A stretch of DNA of 64,000 nt, from NCBI GenBank assembly GCA_001874305.1, contig MPCU01000005.1, positions 327,923 through 391,922 on the forward strand, given 5' to 3'. The translations under genes and the position numbers were made by a program. The notes below the pieces were generated by a model. That model was given only the letters and a program-made list of their open reading frames with translations. It did not search any database and was not told where the DNA came from. Of this stretch, positions 6,048-45,023 are shown one piece after another; position 1 is the stretch's first letter, and each line of letters starts with the position of its first letter. The DNA is from Bacteriovorax sp. MedPE-SWde. GTDB taxonomy: Bacteria; Bdellovibrionota; Bacteriovoracia; Bacteriovoracales; Bacteriovoracaceae.

Positions 6048-6492
6048 ATTCTATATCGCCCTTAGGAGCTCTAACTATAACAGCGTCACCTTCTTCTTTT
6101 CCAATAAGAGATTTTCCAAGAGGACTATTGTAAGAAACTTTTCCTATTTTCATATCAGATTCAGATTCTCCAACAATTTGGTATGTATGTGATTCATCTG
6201 TATCTACATTTAGAATTGTTACAGTTGCTCCAAAAACTATTTTATCAGAAGTAACTGTTGAAGGATCAATTACATTTGATGTTGCAACGATACCTTGAAG
6301 TTGACTGACTCTACCTTCTACTTGAGACTGTTTCTCTTTAGCTGCATGATACTCAGCATTTTCTTTTAAGTCACCTAGCTCTCTAGCTTCACCAATTGTT
6401 ACTCTTAGCTCTTCTCTTACTACTTTAATAAGGTGATCAAGCTCAGTTAGAACCTTATCGTAACCTTCTTTTGTAATTGGATTATCATTCAT
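6019..6492 (-). CDS. greA: Transcription elongation factor GreA
   Basis: EARELGDLKENAEYHAAKEKQ and SPLGKSLIGKEEGD. Confidence 0.95.
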   Translation of the reverse strand: MNDNPITKEGYDKVLTELDHLIKVVREELRVTIGEARELGDLKENAEYHAAKEKQSQVEGRVSQLQGIVATSNVIDPSTVTSDKIVFGATVTILNVDTDESHTYQIVGESESDMKIGKVSYNSPLGKSLIGKEEGDAVIVRAPKGDIEYEVESFEYK

Positions 6493-6503
6493 AATTTATT
6501 CCT

Positions 6504-6803
6504 TTAAAATTTAAATAATGCATTAGCTGCATTTACGAGATCATCCTTGTCTGTACCATTATTTCCACTACCTTTGAGTATGAAATAATCACAGAAATTA
6601 GACTTCTCTTTTTCGACGATTCTGTCTGCACTACTTTCTCTGCATTCATTATATGCGCTTTGGTCATAGAACTTACACATTTTACAACAGTGAAGACTTG
6701 CATAGCAATATGGACATTCTTCGTTGCGAAGTATTTTTTGCTCCGCGGTAAGGTCGAGATCCTTATGGCAACTATGGCATTGAATTTTTGTCGAAAGGTC
6801 CAC
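6504..6803 (-). CDS. Hypothetical cysteine-rich (zinc-ribbon-like) protein
   Basis: CHSCHKD...CPYCYASLHCCKMCKFYD cysteine pairs. Confidence 0.65.
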   Translation of the reverse strand: MDLSTKIQCHSCHKDLDLTAEQKILRNEECPYCYASLHCCKMCKFYDQSAYNECRESSADRIVEKEKSNFCDYFILKGSGNNGTDKDDLVNAANALFKF

Positions 6804-7310
6804 TTAAAAACTCCACTGCTTCCCTAAGTATGCCCCGGGTTGAACTTGACCATTACTGTCGGTCTTGAGGAAAATCTTAGGAAAATTTCTTTTATTGTAT
6901 TCTTCAATCGCTTTATTTAAGTACTGTTCATTAGCACTTTCGATAGTCTTTGTAATGAGAAAGTTAATGAGAAGTGTTGAAGCACCTGCTATTAGGAGTC
7001 CTTTTCTATTTTTGTCACTTGAATTAACAATAAAAGCACTAAGGACAAGCCCTGTTCCAATAGATCCTATTACGGCCGGTCGCCACTTGTTCTCTGATGT
7101 CGATTGATATTGCTTAAGATACTTATATGCCTTTTCATCTTTTTCTAGATGAAACTTTAGTCCCTCTCCCTTTCTCGTTGAGCTTGGATCGACAAGAACT
7201 TCCTGCTGATTAATTATAGCAATTCGACTACATGCTTCATAACTGTGAGCTGTAAGTGAAAGTAGGGTAAGGAAAGCGATAAACATTGTTTTCATAACTA
7301 TTTCTACCAT
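6804..7310 (-). CDS. Hypothetical secreted/membrane protein
   Basis: N-terminal signal-like segment and two hydrophobic stretches. Confidence 0.6.
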   Translation of the reverse strand: MVEIVMKTMFIAFLTLLSLTAHSYEACSRIAIINQQEVLVDPSSTRKGEGLKFHLEKDEKAYKYLKQYQSTSENKWRPAVIGSIGTGLVLSAFIVNSSDKNRKGLLIAGASTLLINFLITKTIESANEQYLNKAIEEYNKRNFPKIFLKTDSNGQVQPGAYLGKQWSF

Positions 7311-9108: not shown

Positions 9109-10137
9109 CTAGATACTATCGAGTCCTGGTATAAAGAACCAATTTCCGTAAGGAGCAAATTCTTGTGCCGGGGTCGGACCAAATATAAATGCTAAGAATT
9201 CATCAGTAGATAGAGTGAAGTTTTCATCTTTAAAACTAAAGAAAATTTTCGATGACTCAATATCATTAATGATGAGGTCATTAGAAAAAATTCCACTAAT
9301 AAATTTTTTGAAAAGCTCTAGGTTTCCAATTTTAAGTATGCCTATATAAAGAGACTGTACTGATGTCATATAGGAAAGGTGCTTTTCTGGTAGCCAAACT
9401 TTATATTCACTAAACTTTTTAAGCATGTCTTGGTCATTGAAGAATGAACATTCATGTATGACACCTGTGAGATCAAACCCTTTGTTTATAAAGAAGTAAT
9501 TAGTAATTTCATTACCATTTCTTTCTATATATATATCCGTAGTTTTAATATTGCTTAGTGTATCCCAGTTTCGTGGAGATCTCTTTGGAGTAATATAGTC
9601 ATTATGGTTATGCTTATATAGCTTATGAAGATTTTTAATATCTGACTCAGATAAATCTTTTAACTTATACTTTTTAAATCCAATAGTATTAAAGTAGTCT
9701 TCATTTTCTTCTTTAGCTCCTAGTTGAATAACGGAGCCAAATTCATAGAATTCGTACTTTCTGTATAGTGCTGCCTTATCACTCCATAAAATGAAGAAGG
9801 AGCACTTCTTTGAATACCTTTGGAGAACATAATTAAATAATTCTTTAAAGTGGCCCTTGCCTCTATGCTCTTGTGAAACAGCAACTCCACCAATGAGAGC
9901 AACTAAGGTAGTGGTTTCACCCTTATAAAACTCTCTGAGGTTAATGCCAATATGAGCAACGACAGTATCGCCATCAATAAGAATGTGATTATGCTTATGA
10001 TTAGATGGATCTAGTAAGCTGTAGAAGTCATTTTCAAACGAATGACCTGGGGGATAGTTAAATGATGCCTCTATTAAAGAGAGAGTCTCATTATAGAGTT
10101 CAGGTTTTTCAGCAAGGGTCGTTTGTATAATGGCCAT
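9109..10137 (-). CDS. GNAT-family N-acetyltransferase
   Basis: ALIGGVAVSQEHRGKGHFKELFNYVLQ acetyl-CoA binding motif. Confidence 0.8.
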   Translation of the reverse strand: MAIIQTTLAEKPELYNETLSLIEASFNYPPGHSFENDFYSLLDPSNHKHNHILIDGDTVVAHIGINLREFYKGETTTLVALIGGVAVSQEHRGKGHFKELFNYVLQRYSKKCSFFILWSDKAALYRKYEFYEFGSVIQLGAKEENEDYFNTIGFKKYKLKDLSESDIKNLHKLYKHNHNDYITPKRSPRNWDTLSNIKTTDIYIERNGNEITNYFFINKGFDLTGVIHECSFFNDQDMLKKFSEYKVWLPEKHLSYMTSVQSLYIGILKIGNLELFKKFISGIFSNDLIINDIESSKIFFSFKDENFTLSTDEFLAFIFGPTPAQEFAPYGNWFFIPGLDSI

Positions 10138-10329
10138 TTTCCTATCTTTATTAGTTAGTAGTTGGGTTAAATAATTACTTTAACTATTTTTTAAAAATGT
10201 TTAATTATTTTACACTTTTTTTCTAATGACTATAAAAGTCAACTCAGAACGCAGTATTCTTACTTTAATATCAATAGGTTATGGCACACTAGGCAAAATA
10301 CTCCTGTCTAAAGATTGTGCGATTTTTTA

Positions 10330-10356
10330 TAAAGTTTCCAGAATCTGGGGCGATAA
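10330..10356 (+). promoter_or_regulatory. Sigma-28 (FliA-type) promoter of first flagellin gene
   Basis: TAAAGTTT-N11-GGCGATAA versus consensus TAAAGTTT-N11-GCCGATAA. Confidence 0.85.
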
Positions 10357-10371
10357 GACCTATGTAACTGC

Positions 10372-10390
10372 TACTGGAAGGTGTCCAGTA
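10372..10390 (+). promoter_or_regulatory. 5' UTR hairpin of flagellin mRNA
   Basis: TACTGGA-aggtg-TCCAGTA perfect 7-bp stem just downstream of predicted start site. Confidence 0.5.
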
Positions 10391-10443
10391 AAAGTTGTGC
10401 GATAGGAAGGAATCTTGTCGTAACCCGAATCTAGGAGGATGTA

Positions 10444-11292
10444 ATGGGATTAAGAATTAACACCAATGTAGCCTCGCTTAACGCTCAAAGAAATTTGAGG
10501 GGTACGCGTATTGGTATGCAACAATCACTTGAGAAATTGTCTTCAGGACAAAGAATCAACAGAGCTGGCGACGACGCTGCCGGTTTAGCAATCTCAGAAA
10601 ATTTAAAAGCACAAATTAGAGGGCTTGGACAAGCTGAAAGAAATGCTGAAGATGGTATTTCACTTGTTCAGATCGCTGAAGGTGCACTTGGAGAAGTATC
10701 GAATATCTTAATTAGATTAAGAGAACTCTCTGTACAAGCCGCTTCTGATACTATTGGTGGAACTGAAAGAAAATTCCTTAATGTTGAATTTGAGCAATTA
10801 ACGTCGGAAATCGACCGTATTGCCAACTCAACGGAATTTAACAGAGTTCCTCTATTAAATGGTACAGGTGCAGTTTTTGATATTCAAATTGGGACTAGAA
10901 ATGACCCTATATCAGACCGTTTAACATTTGACGCTTCATCTGCGGATGTAAACGTTGCGGCCCTAGGTCTTAACCTTGCTTCAGTAGCAGATAAGATCTC
11001 GGCACAGAACTCTCTGTCATCTATTGACCAAGCGATTGTTTCTGTATCTGGTATTAGAGCGGACTTTGGTGCCCTTCAAAACAGATTACAGTCTACGATC
11101 AACAACATTGCGACAAGTATTGAGAACCTCTCAGCTGCCAACTCGCGTGTTAGAGACACTGATATTGCATCAGAGACAGCTAACTTAACAAAACAAAACA
11201 TATTAATGCAAGCCGGTACTTCAGTGTTAGCGCAAGCGAACTCAAGTACAAAGTCTGCCTTAAGTCTCATTCAATCAGCGTCTCAGGGTTAA
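10444..11292 (+). CDS. Flagellin
   Basis: MGLRINTNVASLNAQRNL...SSGQRINRAGDDAAGLAISENLKAQIRGL; C-term AANSRVRDTDIASETANLTKQNIL. Confidence 0.97.
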   Translation: MGLRINTNVASLNAQRNLRGTRIGMQQSLEKLSSGQRINRAGDDAAGLAISENLKAQIRGLGQAERNAEDGISLVQIAEGALGEVSNILIRLRELSVQAASDTIGGTERKFLNVEFEQLTSEIDRIANSTEFNRVPLLNGTGAVFDIQIGTRNDPISDRLTFDASSADVNVAALGLNLASVADKISAQNSLSSIDQAIVSVSGIRADFGALQNRLQSTINNIATSIENLSAANSRVRDTDIASETANLTKQNILMQAGTSVLAQANSSTKSALSLIQSASQG

Positions 11293-13526: not shown

Positions 13527-14063
13527 TTATCTCGCTGAAAGTTTAATGAACTCAGCGAGGTAGTGCTTAACTAGAGCATCACTATCAACATCTTCGTTAC
13601 CAAATTTCCAAGCAATTTTATTAAATGGACCTATGTGAGCACGAATTTCGTGAGTTGCTGTCTCTCCATGGGATTGACTCTCATTAACTCTAGCACTGAA
13701 GACATCTTTACCATTAGATAGAAAACCAATACTGATAAGGTCATCAGCTCTTCTTGCAAAAATTAATCTTAATGAATTTCTATAGAGCATAAAGTCGTTA
13801 ATAGTATTCGCTATTTTGAATATCTTTATAGTACTTCCAGAGTCTTCACCACGGTATTGGTTAAATTTATGAGTGTAGATCTCGAATAAATCTCGAACTT
13901 GATTCATAAAGTTAATTGATGACTCTTCAAGTTGGTAAGAAGGGTTAAGGTGATCGTTGAAATTAACAATACCCGACTCTTCCATATTGATTTCCTCAAG
14001 AGCGAGGTTCTCAATCCATTTTGTCGATACTTCCGTTGTACTATCTTGTTTAATGATATCCAT
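13527..14063 (-). CDS. Hypothetical protein
   Basis: 178-aa ORF; no family recognised. Confidence 0.65.
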   Translation of the reverse strand: MDIIKQDSTTEVSTKWIENLALEEINMEESGIVNFNDHLNPSYQLEESSINFMNQVRDLFEIYTHKFNQYRGEDSGSTIKIFKIANTINDFMLYRNSLRLIFARRADDLISIGFLSNGKDVFSARVNESQSHGETATHEIRAHIGPFNKIAWKFGNEDVDSDALVKHYLAEFIKLSAR

Positions 14064-14103
14064 ACTTTAATGATGAAGAAAATTGTGGGGTATGTCAATG
14101 TGC

Positions 14104-14231
14104 CCGCGCTCAAAACACGAGAGTGTTTTGACGTCGGAGCTCTGGATGCGTCACGTAGTGATGCTGAACAGCCTGCAGGTTACCGTCATGCACTTGTGTC
14201 ACCACAGTGACATTAATGCATGGGCGGAGAC
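14104..14231 (-). repeat. Structured intergenic repeat, copy A (long form)
   Basis: Reverse strand reads TCCGCCCATGCA..TGTCACTGTGGTGACAC..ACGGTA..GAGCTCCGACGTCAAAACACTCTCGTGTTTTG; same ordered blocks as 44321-44413. Confidence 0.75.
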
Positions 14232-14407
14232 CATCTAGTTCATATAAAAAATCAGAGTGAAGTTTAAAAAGAAAAGTAAGGAGTCTCATAGCCAGCAGTT
14301 TGAAAGTCTCCGCCCGTCATACGACAGGTGGATGTAGTAGATAATCACTTTAGGCTTCTCACTAATTCATGAGCTTGCTCACCATGACCAGGGACCGCTT
14401 CCTTTCT

Positions 14408-14446
14408 AAAAAATGTAGGGCAAAGAACTTTGTTTTGCCAACTACA
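14408..14446 (-). terminator. Minus-strand intrinsic terminator or attenuator
   Basis: Reverse strand TGTAG-TT-GGCAAA-acaaagttc-TTTGCC-CTACA followed by TTTTTT. Confidence 0.55.
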
Positions 14447-14459
14447 AGACTCACATACA

Positions 14460-42997: not shown

Positions 42998-44308
42998 ATG
43001 AGTGAGAAGATTACATATTCAGAAAGAGATCTCTTATATTTTAGGCAATGGTTATGTCTTGATATGAAGAGTGTTACTTGGCAAGGAAAGTACACCGAAG
43101 ACTTTGAGAAGTTTTGGCAAACTTTCTTTCTTCCAGGTATATCATTATCTGAAATGTCTAAACGTTTTGTATATGCATCACAAAGAGCACAGGTAGGGCC
43201 AATAGGTTCGTGGTTTCTTTGGTTAAGAGATAAATTTATCTGCTATACATTTATTGAGAAAGATATTTCACTCTCTCTTCTATGCCGTGAATTATCTCTT
43301 CCAACTTCAGTGGTGGCGAGGGTTATTAGAAACTTCTTCGTTGACGTTTTTCCTCACCATGAAGATTTCTTTAATGAGAGCCTCTTAGTAACAAGCCCAA
43401 TTTCAAAGAATATATCTATCACTGCAAAGAAACTTGTTAGTGAAATAGATGAAGAGATTAATTTCTCAGGAAGTCATGATGAGGAAATCATGACTTCGAT
43501 GGAAGTTACACTATATGATGACTGGTCAATATTCTTAGAGAGAATGCATGTCGACTTTGTTGGTAAAGCACTTGATTTAAGCCAGGTTGATAGTAAGGAT
43601 ACTTTTAAACGAAATATTCAAACAGTTGCAAATGTTGTTGCAGTTTTAGGAGTTTCGTTATTCCTAGTCTGGGCGATAGAGTTTGGAAATAAAAAATATG
43701 AAAAGTATCTATCTGAAAAGATTTCAATTTATGAGCCACAGTTTCGGTGGGAAGATAAAGGCCTAAAATTTACTGATTCAGAAAATTCTGCAAAATTAGC
43801 TGCAAACTTTGAGCTTGATGTCGAGGATATTGAAAAAGTTGATGATACTGAAAACTACCTCGGTGAATCTTTAGAAGATGAAGAAAGGATTGGGGTAGAG
43901 TCAGAGGTTGTTCTAACTTCTCTTGATACCTTGCCTAAAGACTTCAATGTTGCAGATAGTGAAACTTCAAAATTTGAGGAAGATGTTGTGAGTGGCTATC
44001 GAGATAGTCGCTATGGTAACACAAAAGTTTATCGAGTTATGATGAGATCTAGTGATACTAGAGGTGCTCGAGGAAAGTTAACAACACTGCTAGATAGATA
44101 CGGAATCACTCAGGTTGATAATGTAAAACCGGGACTTTCTGTTCCTGGTGGCTTCTATTATAACCTTTACGTACCAAGAACATATCTAAAAGAGTTTATG
44201 GCCCAAGTACAAGAAGTTGATAAGGCCGTCATCTACGAGTCACGAACTCGAACTCGAAGAAATCCACCAGGGAAAAACAAGGTTTTTATTTGGGTTAAGT
44301 CTATTTAG
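42998..44308 (+). CDS. Hypothetical membrane protein
   Basis: Central TM segment VVAVLGVSLFLVWAIEFG, periplasmic C-terminal domain. Confidence 0.6.
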   Translation: MSEKITYSERDLLYFRQWLCLDMKSVTWQGKYTEDFEKFWQTFFLPGISLSEMSKRFVYASQRAQVGPIGSWFLWLRDKFICYTFIEKDISLSLLCRELSLPTSVVARVIRNFFVDVFPHHEDFFNESLLVTSPISKNISITAKKLVSEIDEEINFSGSHDEEIMTSMEVTLYDDWSIFLERMHVDFVGKALDLSQVDSKDTFKRNIQTVANVVAVLGVSLFLVWAIEFGNKKYEKYLSEKISIYEPQFRWEDKGLKFTDSENSAKLAANFELDVEDIEKVDDTENYLGESLEDEERIGVESEVVLTSLDTLPKDFNVADSETSKFEEDVVSGYRDSRYGNTKVYRVMMRSSDTRGARGKLTTLLDRYGITQVDNVKPGLSVPGGFYYNLYVPRTYLKEFMAQVQEVDKAVIYESRTRTRRNPPGKNKVFIWVKSI

Positions 44309-44320
44309 GATATAAACAAA

Positions 44321-44413
44321 GGCTGTCCGCCCATGCAGAGATGTCACTGTGGTGACACTCTTCACAACGGTAGAGCTCCGACATCAAAACACTTACGTGT
44401 TTTGCTGCGGATC
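44321..44413 (+). repeat. Structured intergenic repeat, copy B (short form)
   Basis: TCCGCCCATGCA..TGTCACTGTGGTGACAC..ACGGTA..GAGCTCCGACATCAAAACACTTACGTGTTTTG; opposite orientation to copy A at 14104-14231. Confidence 0.75.
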
Positions 44414-45023
44414 ACATCTGACCATCAGGAATTTCAAAAAGAGTTTTAACTTTTCTAAGAAGAGTATGAGTTCTACCTAAGAACCACCACTGTCTAACAA
44501 AACCAATTAGCATTGATACAGCAAATCCATAAACAACTCCAGAGTGAGTAGTCTTTTGTACCATATTCGTATCATGTGCCCCACCAAGTAAGAATGCAAT
44601 CATACCAAGGATAAGCATTAGGATAGTCCATGGAACTGTTTGTCTTTTGGCAAGGTCGGCTTCGTGAACAAATCTCTTAACCTTAGCTTTATAAGGTGTA
44701 AGGTCTTCAGGTGGGTTTTCAAATAGTTCATGTAGGTTTTGCTCTGAACCAATAATCATCGCAATATTATTAACTAGACGAGAAACACCTATAAAGTAGA
44801 ACATTACAAATGCTTGAGCAAAAATAGTATATATAAATGTAGGGATGGCCAATTTAATGTGGCTTAAGCTGAAATCAATAAATCCTAAAGCGACACATGT
44901 AGTCAGAGTTAGTGCTAGAACCATGATTAAAATCAATGAGCGTAATAGATAGGCCATAATTTTCTCTTTGTTGTTTCGGATTATATTGTCATACATCCTG
45001 AGATTTGCTAAATGTGAGGACAT
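44412..45023 (-). CDS. Hypothetical multi-pass membrane protein
   Basis: Four hydrophobic segments; likely start at internal Met (MAYLLRS...). Confidence 0.6.
   Translation of the reverse strand: MSSHLANLRMYDNIIRNNKEKIMAYLLRSLILIMVLALTLTTCVALGFIDFSLSHIKLAIPTFIYTIFAQAFVMFYFIGVSRLVNNIAMIIGSEQNLHELFENPPEDLTPYKAKVKRFVHEADLAKRQTVPWTILMLILGMIAFLLGGAHDTNMVQKTTHSGVVYGFAVSMLIGFVRQWWFLGRTHTLLRKVKTLFEIPDGQM

Follow-up and report, generated by a model that had tools for sequence, protein, structure and literature searches.

The window, by which we mean the whole 64,000-nt stretch of DNA analysed, holds two copies (A and B) of a two-hairpin element that we consider probably to be a non-autonomous, REP/MITE-like mobile DNA repeat of the Bacteriovoracales. 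As far as we found, this two-hairpin family is unnamed in the literature and is neither an Rfam RNA nor a RAYT REP, and its sequence distribution suggests that it has apparently spread through predatory Bacteriovoracales genomes as a miniature mobile element. The assignment is carried by a two-arm fold that is retained as DNA, by insertion sites that are empty in relatives and by an exact, one-sided docking of the element at gene and RNA-gene boundaries.

Copies A and B and the family fold

A covariance model built from eight copies detects A and B, and only these, in the window. Copy A, the long form, spans 14100..14228 on the minus strand (129 nt; 79.3 bits, E 3e-19), and copy B, the short form, spans 44326..44411 on the plus strand within a model match of 44326-44414 (92.8 bits, E 8e-23). 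The initial annotation had located both copies correctly to a few bases, and on re-reading of the sequence all of its named blocks were found in the order and on the strands claimed, including the perfect stems TGTCAC-TGTG-GTGACA and CAAAACAC-NNNN-GTGTTTTG with differing tetraloops, the flanking stems that compensate between the copies, and the extra third hairpin of A. Arm 1 of A (14183..14228, minus strand) reads CCG-CCC-ATGCA, the hairpin TGTCAC-TGTG-GTGACA, and TGCAT-GA-CGG, as defined by sequence, ssDNA folding and helix counts over 28 copies, and arm 2 (14102..14140, minus strand) reads GC(t)CCG..CGTCAAAACAC-TCTC-GTGTTTTGAGCG..CGGGC, as defined by sequence, folding and covariation in relatives. 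Alignment of 40-odd copies showed that the intervening linker of A (14141..14182, minus strand) is expanded by the extra small hairpin (GCATCAC-TAC-GTGACGC region), whereas in most copies it consists of TAAA alone; owing to this extra stretch A is longer than B by 40 nt. Sequence and ssDNA folding place arm 1 of B, with its outer stem AGAG/CTCT, at 44326..44370 and its arm 2 at 44375..44411, both on the plus strand. The element is richer in G+C than its surroundings, as had been claimed (0.54 for A and 0.51 for B versus 0.364 for the window), and both copies fold as ssDNA far better than shuffled sequences (z -3.75 for A and -5.04 for B).

Just upstream of copy A is a 6S RNA (SsrS) gene (14279..14453, minus strand; Rfam RF00013, 60.6 bits), and downstream of it is an open frame of 178 aa (13527..14063, minus strand) with no Pfam match. 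The 6S RNA gene is conserved beside this same downstream gene in two relatives (G001 and G003) in which the element is absent. A promoter scan identified the promoter-like TTGACA-17-CATCAT of the 178-aa gene at 14070..14098 (minus strand), in a downstream flank that matches the element-less relative G002. Its first hexamer begins 2 nt past the model match of A and ~4 nt past arm 2; as read from the sequence, copy A docks on this promoter-like site of the neighbouring gene and leaves it unbroken. Copy B follows a gene of 436 aa (42998..44308, plus strand), whose stop codon lies 17 nt before the element, and its 3' end is directly adjoined by the stop codon (44412-44414) of a convergent gene of 203 aa (44412..45023, minus strand), which is kept in 6/6 same-genus relatives, each lacking the element at that place.

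When 48 copies were lined up they resolved into two separate arms joined by a TAAA linker. Arm 1 consists of CCG-CCC-AYGC, a variable hairpin and GCRY-RA-CGG, with a nearly invariant CCG/CGG foot and a conserved CCC/RA internal loop, and arm 2 consists of GCGAC-CG-TCAAAATGC-loop-GCATTTTG-ACG-T-GTCGC in most genera and of GC(t)CCG..CGGGC in the genus of the window. Some copies carry an additional hairpin, located in the linker in A and in arm 2 in the copies at mutM. DNA folding returned the two-arm structure for A, B and a third copy, L068 (z -3.8 to -5.4), with less favorable folding of the L009 copy (z -1.7). For arm 2, a sequence-only alignment of 15 copies had 94.6% of its cells paired and double changes at 9/15 pairs, amounting to 30 double-change cells compared with 9.3 after shuffling and at most 13 in slid controls; for arm 1 in 28 copies, 86.7% of cells were paired, with 30 double-change cells compared with 14.4 after shuffling and at most 10 in slid controls. 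The two-arm fold is thus strongly supported by comparative counts, which show that pairing is kept while the sequence drifts, and the pattern is well beyond chance given the covariation and the further copies in this genome and its relatives. A first consensus that paired the two ends of the unit (CCGC/GCGG) was dropped, as the larger set shows CCG/CGG and GCGAC/GTCGC arms. Two variant units were observed. In one (L066 11931-12020, minus strand) arm 1 has lost its CCC/AA internal loop to complete pairing (CCGCCCATGC..GCATGGGCGG), which looks as though one side had served as the template for the other. The second is a solitary arm 1, with arm 2 absent, beside a 378-aa tyrosine recombinase (PF00589; L072 6822-8123).

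The composition of the paired positions bears on whether this structure is maintained in DNA or in RNA. G-U pairs account for 1/212 pairs in arm 2 and 7/479 in both arms, compared with 18/175 in tRNAs from the same loci and 14/59 in the adjacent 6S RNA, and pair changes run from one Watson-Crick pair to another. The depletion relative to tRNAs (Fisher p 4e-6 for arm 2 and 2e-6 for both arms) is clear in direction, although the p values are rough because the reference structures were predicted by minimum energy and the copies share ancestry. Such depletion points to selection, or copying, as DNA rather than RNA: folding of the strand as DNA, or templating of one half on the other, would leave hardly any G-U pairs, which in an RNA would be unusual, and the sequences accordingly favour a DNA-level structure. 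The element offers a clear case in which G-U absence separates DNA-level from RNA-level structure.

The initial annotation had left the choice between a structured RNA and a REP/MITE-like mobile unit, and we weighed the possibility that the element is a structured small RNA or 3'-UTR element whose hairpins work at the RNA level, for instance by stabilising mRNA 3' ends or providing processing sites right after stop codons. The structure is indeed strong and conserved, 14/28 convergent copies, taken on the strand of the gene, start right behind its stop codon, and copy A lies on the same strand as the 6S RNA gene that precedes it. These observations are set against the near-absence of G-U pairs and against sites that are empty in relatives and share no conserved neighbour gene. 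Furthermore, promoter and terminator scans found no such site around B and, around A, only the TTGACA-17-CATCAT of the neighbouring gene downstream on its strand; strict and permissive Rfam searches of A, B and 15 other loci returned no family matching the element above the gathering threshold, the only matches nearby being 6S RNA, tRNAs and cobalamin riboswitches. We consider an RNA function improbable on this balance, and the RNA half of the proposal is not supported, synteny being mostly absent as well, while the mobile half is supported by the dispersal of at least eight copies through this genome, the occurrence of others in related genera, empty sites and tandem arrays. The annotation had recognised no named family, in agreement with Rfam; searches of the genome and its relatives turned up further copies in both, and the grounds it had given for refutation (two copies alone, none in relatives, or an Rfam match) did not arise.

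Dispersal, insertion and one-sided docking

Within the 3.76-Mb genome (15 contigs), blastn with copy A found 7 places covering at least 5 copies, and the covariance model found 8 copies, at C15:99464, C11:372248 (B), C11:181025, C11:342022 (A), C10:399308, C10:395151, C10:196499 and C14:213821, the last of which is degenerate with arm 1 alone recognisable. The element was present in 13/59 genomes of the family sample and in 15/192 genomes of the phylum sample, every one of the latter in the window's own family, at 1 to 8 copies per genome; this low copy number counts against the REP-family reading. An exact-pattern search across 85,462 species returned 14 stretches, in records assigned to Bacteriovoracaceae, Halobacteriovoraceae, Halobacteriovorax, Bacteriovoracales, 'Oligoflexia bacterium' and 'Bdellovibrionota bacterium' and in no others, and a narrower genome pattern with the arm-1 loop fixed to the form of this genus gave no hits. 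No element was detected in phages (INPHARED) or plasmids (PLSDB) by blastn, or in viral contigs (IMG/VR) by exact pattern. The element is usable as a lineage marker for Bacteriovoracales genomes.

Comparison with relatives exposes the sites before insertion. At the B site, G005, G004, G001 and G003 have the two flanking genes side by side with no element between them, and G002 and G006 show an element-free right flank, so that the site is empty in 6/6 same-genus relatives. At the A site, the 6S RNA gene directly neighbours the downstream gene in G001 and G003, again with no element in between, and the right flank in G002 is likewise element-free. The C10:196499 site is empty in G004, the C15:99464 site is empty in G004 and others, and the ssb site is filled in this genome (G000) and G005 only. 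No flanking gene family is common to unrelated copies. Because the contexts are unrelated and the four tested sites are empty in relatives, we conclude that the units have inserted, and have done so after the relatives diverged. A few copies, in contrast, are old and have been passed on vertically (ssb in G000/G005, a tRNA-Arg site in G008/G076 and a riboswitch site in G016/G083), and the retention of these sequences could reflect a host function. No transposase or integrase consistently accompanies the copies, and the case for mobility therefore comes from the empty sites and not from an enzyme. Terminal inverted repeats are absent, the ends TCCGCC.. and ..GTCGCA not being inverted copies of one another, and most copies have no direct repeats at their ends of the kind that a target-site duplication would leave.

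The insertions are positioned with respect to one end of the element, which reads ..GTCGCA or ..CGGGCA on the 3' side. The stop codon of a convergent gene lies at most 5 nt from this end in 14/28 copies, compared with 1.4 expected for random placement in the same gaps (P 1.8e-13), gene ends here being taken from open frames of 100 aa or more rather than from curated annotations; the 14 include the G005 orthologue of the ssb copy, leaving 13 that are independent. On the 5' side the corresponding count is 1/40 versus 1.6 expected, that is, no bias. The stop position at B, C10:196499 and ssb is identical in element-less relatives, which means that the gene is not truncated. The same 3' end abuts the D-stem of tRNA-Thr, tRNA-Ser and tRNA-Arg (L053, L050 and L075) and the T-stem side of tRNA-Arg (L030 and L048), and in these tRNA-docked copies the unit lies between direct repeats of the tRNA end (12-37 nt in L030, L048, L053 and L050; 13 nt in L075). 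Further boundaries abutted by this 3' end are the mutM start codon, in the mutM copies, and, in a cobalamin riboswitch, the 3' core AAGCCCGAAGACCTGCC. REPs are known near the 3' ends of genes, where they supply TAG stop codons (PMC3733652), so nearness in itself is not new; the new feature, as far as the sequences can be read, is the exact one-sided docking, tRNA stems included.

Tandem arrays and the edges of integrated DNA

Two species of one genus have a cobalamin riboswitch whose 5' part and 3' core are separated by 3 or 4 tandem units (L033 1146-1620 and L035 1501-2034, both minus strand; 3' core GAAGACCTGCC). The match to the riboswitch model extends into the first unit, and we take the 3' core to be this segment from the known riboswitch consensus. 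Within each species the units have been homogenised, but those of one species differ from those of the other.

In this genome a 4-kb stretch at the 3' end of ssb (L065 5152-9415, in G000:C10) lies between 165-nt direct repeats, each consisting of a terminator, the element and the last bases of ssb. Next to mutM in G161, 5.6 kb are enclosed by a 234-nt direct repeat that includes the element, and in G151 a 10.5-kb integrated island at the mutM start (L202 376-11788, in G151:C3) is bounded by exact 17-nt core repeats ATGCCCGAATTACCAGA, one of the two mutM-start copies of which carries the element alongside; a PF00589 tyrosine integrase (9606-10886) of this island adjoins mutM. Given the direct repeats and cores that bracket the ssb and mutM stretches, the element sometimes marks the edge of integrated DNA, whether as cause or by coincidence. 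The ssb stretch was also seen to carry a RAYT, a DUF7878 protein and small unknown proteins, the open frames of the G151 island cargo include one of 1,039 aa, and G189 has an integrase-like match just upstream of mutM. The element as an ancestral mutM leader was rejected, since 30 mutM loci of the family lack it.

These arrangements raise the possibility that the element is the flank of integrative islands, its 3' end serving as a tyrosine-recombinase attachment core and solitary copies being scars or passengers. The exact repetition of the G151 core 10.5 kb away with PF00589 adjacent, the element-containing repeats around the ssb and G161 mutM stretches, and the docking at tRNA ends, which are typical attachment sites, would all fit such an origin. 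Most copies, including A and B, nevertheless have no island, the G151 core repeat excludes the element on one side, so that the element may simply predate the island, no single integrase occurs with the copies, and the targets are very varied. An island flank is, in our view, an unlikely account of the family as a whole.

Relation to known repeats and candidate mobilising enzymes

MITEs such as Correia/NEMIS or ERIC are interspersed, intergenic, hairpin-forming units of ~100-130 bp, and the element resembles them in size, hairpins, dispersal and intergenic location but lacks the terminal inverted repeats of an IS and shows no regular TA duplication. Integron attC sites are recombination-type hairpins conserved in structure and sited after stop codons. 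An attC-like identity would account for an imperfect hairpin whose shape is conserved more than its sequence and which directly follows stop codons; the element, however, has no end core boxes (no RYYYAAC/GTTRRRY boxes at the ends of the 40-odd copies inspected), no integron integrase scored above the TIGR02249 cut-off in 24 genomes (0/24), cassette arrays are lacking, and the genes on either side are resident ones, the site being empty in relatives, rather than cassettes. An integron system was consequently rejected, and an attC-like site is a weak proposal with scarcely any probability left to it.

GTAG REPs and REPINs are non-autonomous and extragenic, and their termini often give flanking ORFs a TAG stop codon (PMC3116915, PMC3733652). 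The element is likewise a non-autonomous palindromic repeat located outside genes but has no GTAG/GTRG tag at the arm feet, the consensus arms starting with CCGCC.. and GCGAC../GCTCCG.., and it does not sit beside RAYT genes. The CGTC REPs described by Di Nocera et al. (2013) are short intergenic palindromes that prefer convergent or unidirectional gaps near ORF 3' ends, and the class, including Neisseria dRS3, often forms dimers with no dedicated transposase found (PMC3733652); dRS3 is itself an integration site for filamentous prophage (PMC3898611). Our element is extragenic, near ORF 3' ends and without a dedicated transposase, and its arm 2 often has CGTC at the foot of the inner stem. This CGTC is present in about half of 26 arms, where it is mostly paired, and G11-C35 covaries to A-T, whereas the CGTC REPs have an unpaired CGTC (or TGTC/CCTC) tag on an 8-9-bp stem with a 4-5-nt loop, followed by an unpaired tail, mostly CCA, in place of which the element ends in GTCGCA or CGGGCA. 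It also differs in joining two unlike arms in one ~90-150-nt unit with conserved CCG-CCC and TAAAGC, in having few copies, and in docking one-sidedly and exactly. The element is closest to, and works like, the CGTC-type transposase-less repeats, and because it lacks their tag and tail we do not file it as a member of that class.

What moves palindromic repeats without a known transposase, such as the CGTC class, is an open problem, and here the empty-site insertions, fixed docking end, tandem arrays and target-end direct repeats together make the chemistry of the joint readable from sequence. We infer that the element would be mobilised in trans while single-stranded, its arms folding and being recognised by their shape by a putative DNA-processing enzyme. 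The 3' end of the element (..GTCGCA or ..CGGGCA) would be joined beside a gene or RNA-gene boundary, allowing the host gene to survive, and after a stop codon the hairpins would become part of the 3' untranslated region of the gene, with possible secondary effects on mRNA stability or termination. Candidate mobilising enzymes are a non-RAYT Y1/HUH enzyme or a tyrosine recombinase. A more far-reaching and rather speculative reading, to which we give a minor share of belief, is that the family represents a new class of ssDNA recombination site or miniature element, a shape-recognised two-hairpin unit whose fixed end is joined exactly at functional boundaries by a putative Bacteriovoracales enzyme; equally tentatively, those boundaries would comprise stop codons, the mutM start codon, tRNA D- and T-stems and the cobalamin riboswitch 3' core.

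RAYTs appear unlikely as the mobilising enzyme on the basis of their genomic positions. The proposal that the element is the REP of local RAYT (Y1/IS200-like) transposases draws on the abundance of RAYT genes, which occur in 29/40 genomes of the family, and on one RAYT locus that lies between two copies in this genome. That locus is, however, the only one of 33 with the element within the ~1.5 kb searched on each side, and its RAYT is directly flanked by a different palindromic repeat (GGTGCCATGC..). Together with the missing GTAG/GTRG feet, these results largely refute a RAYT-REP identity, which we regard as very unlikely, and RAYT was rejected as the mobilising partner. The Y1/RAYT gene (L065 6550-7191, in G000:C10) has the second repeat at 6400-6560 and 7150-7260. 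This second palindromic family (GGTGCCATGCACYTTTGGTTTCGC..GCGAAACCAAAAG..GCATGGCAC) was observed at L065 and also at L066, L018, L059, L022 and L115, and by its position it is probably the REP of the L065 RAYT. One copy of the second family occupies the gap at the B site in G003.
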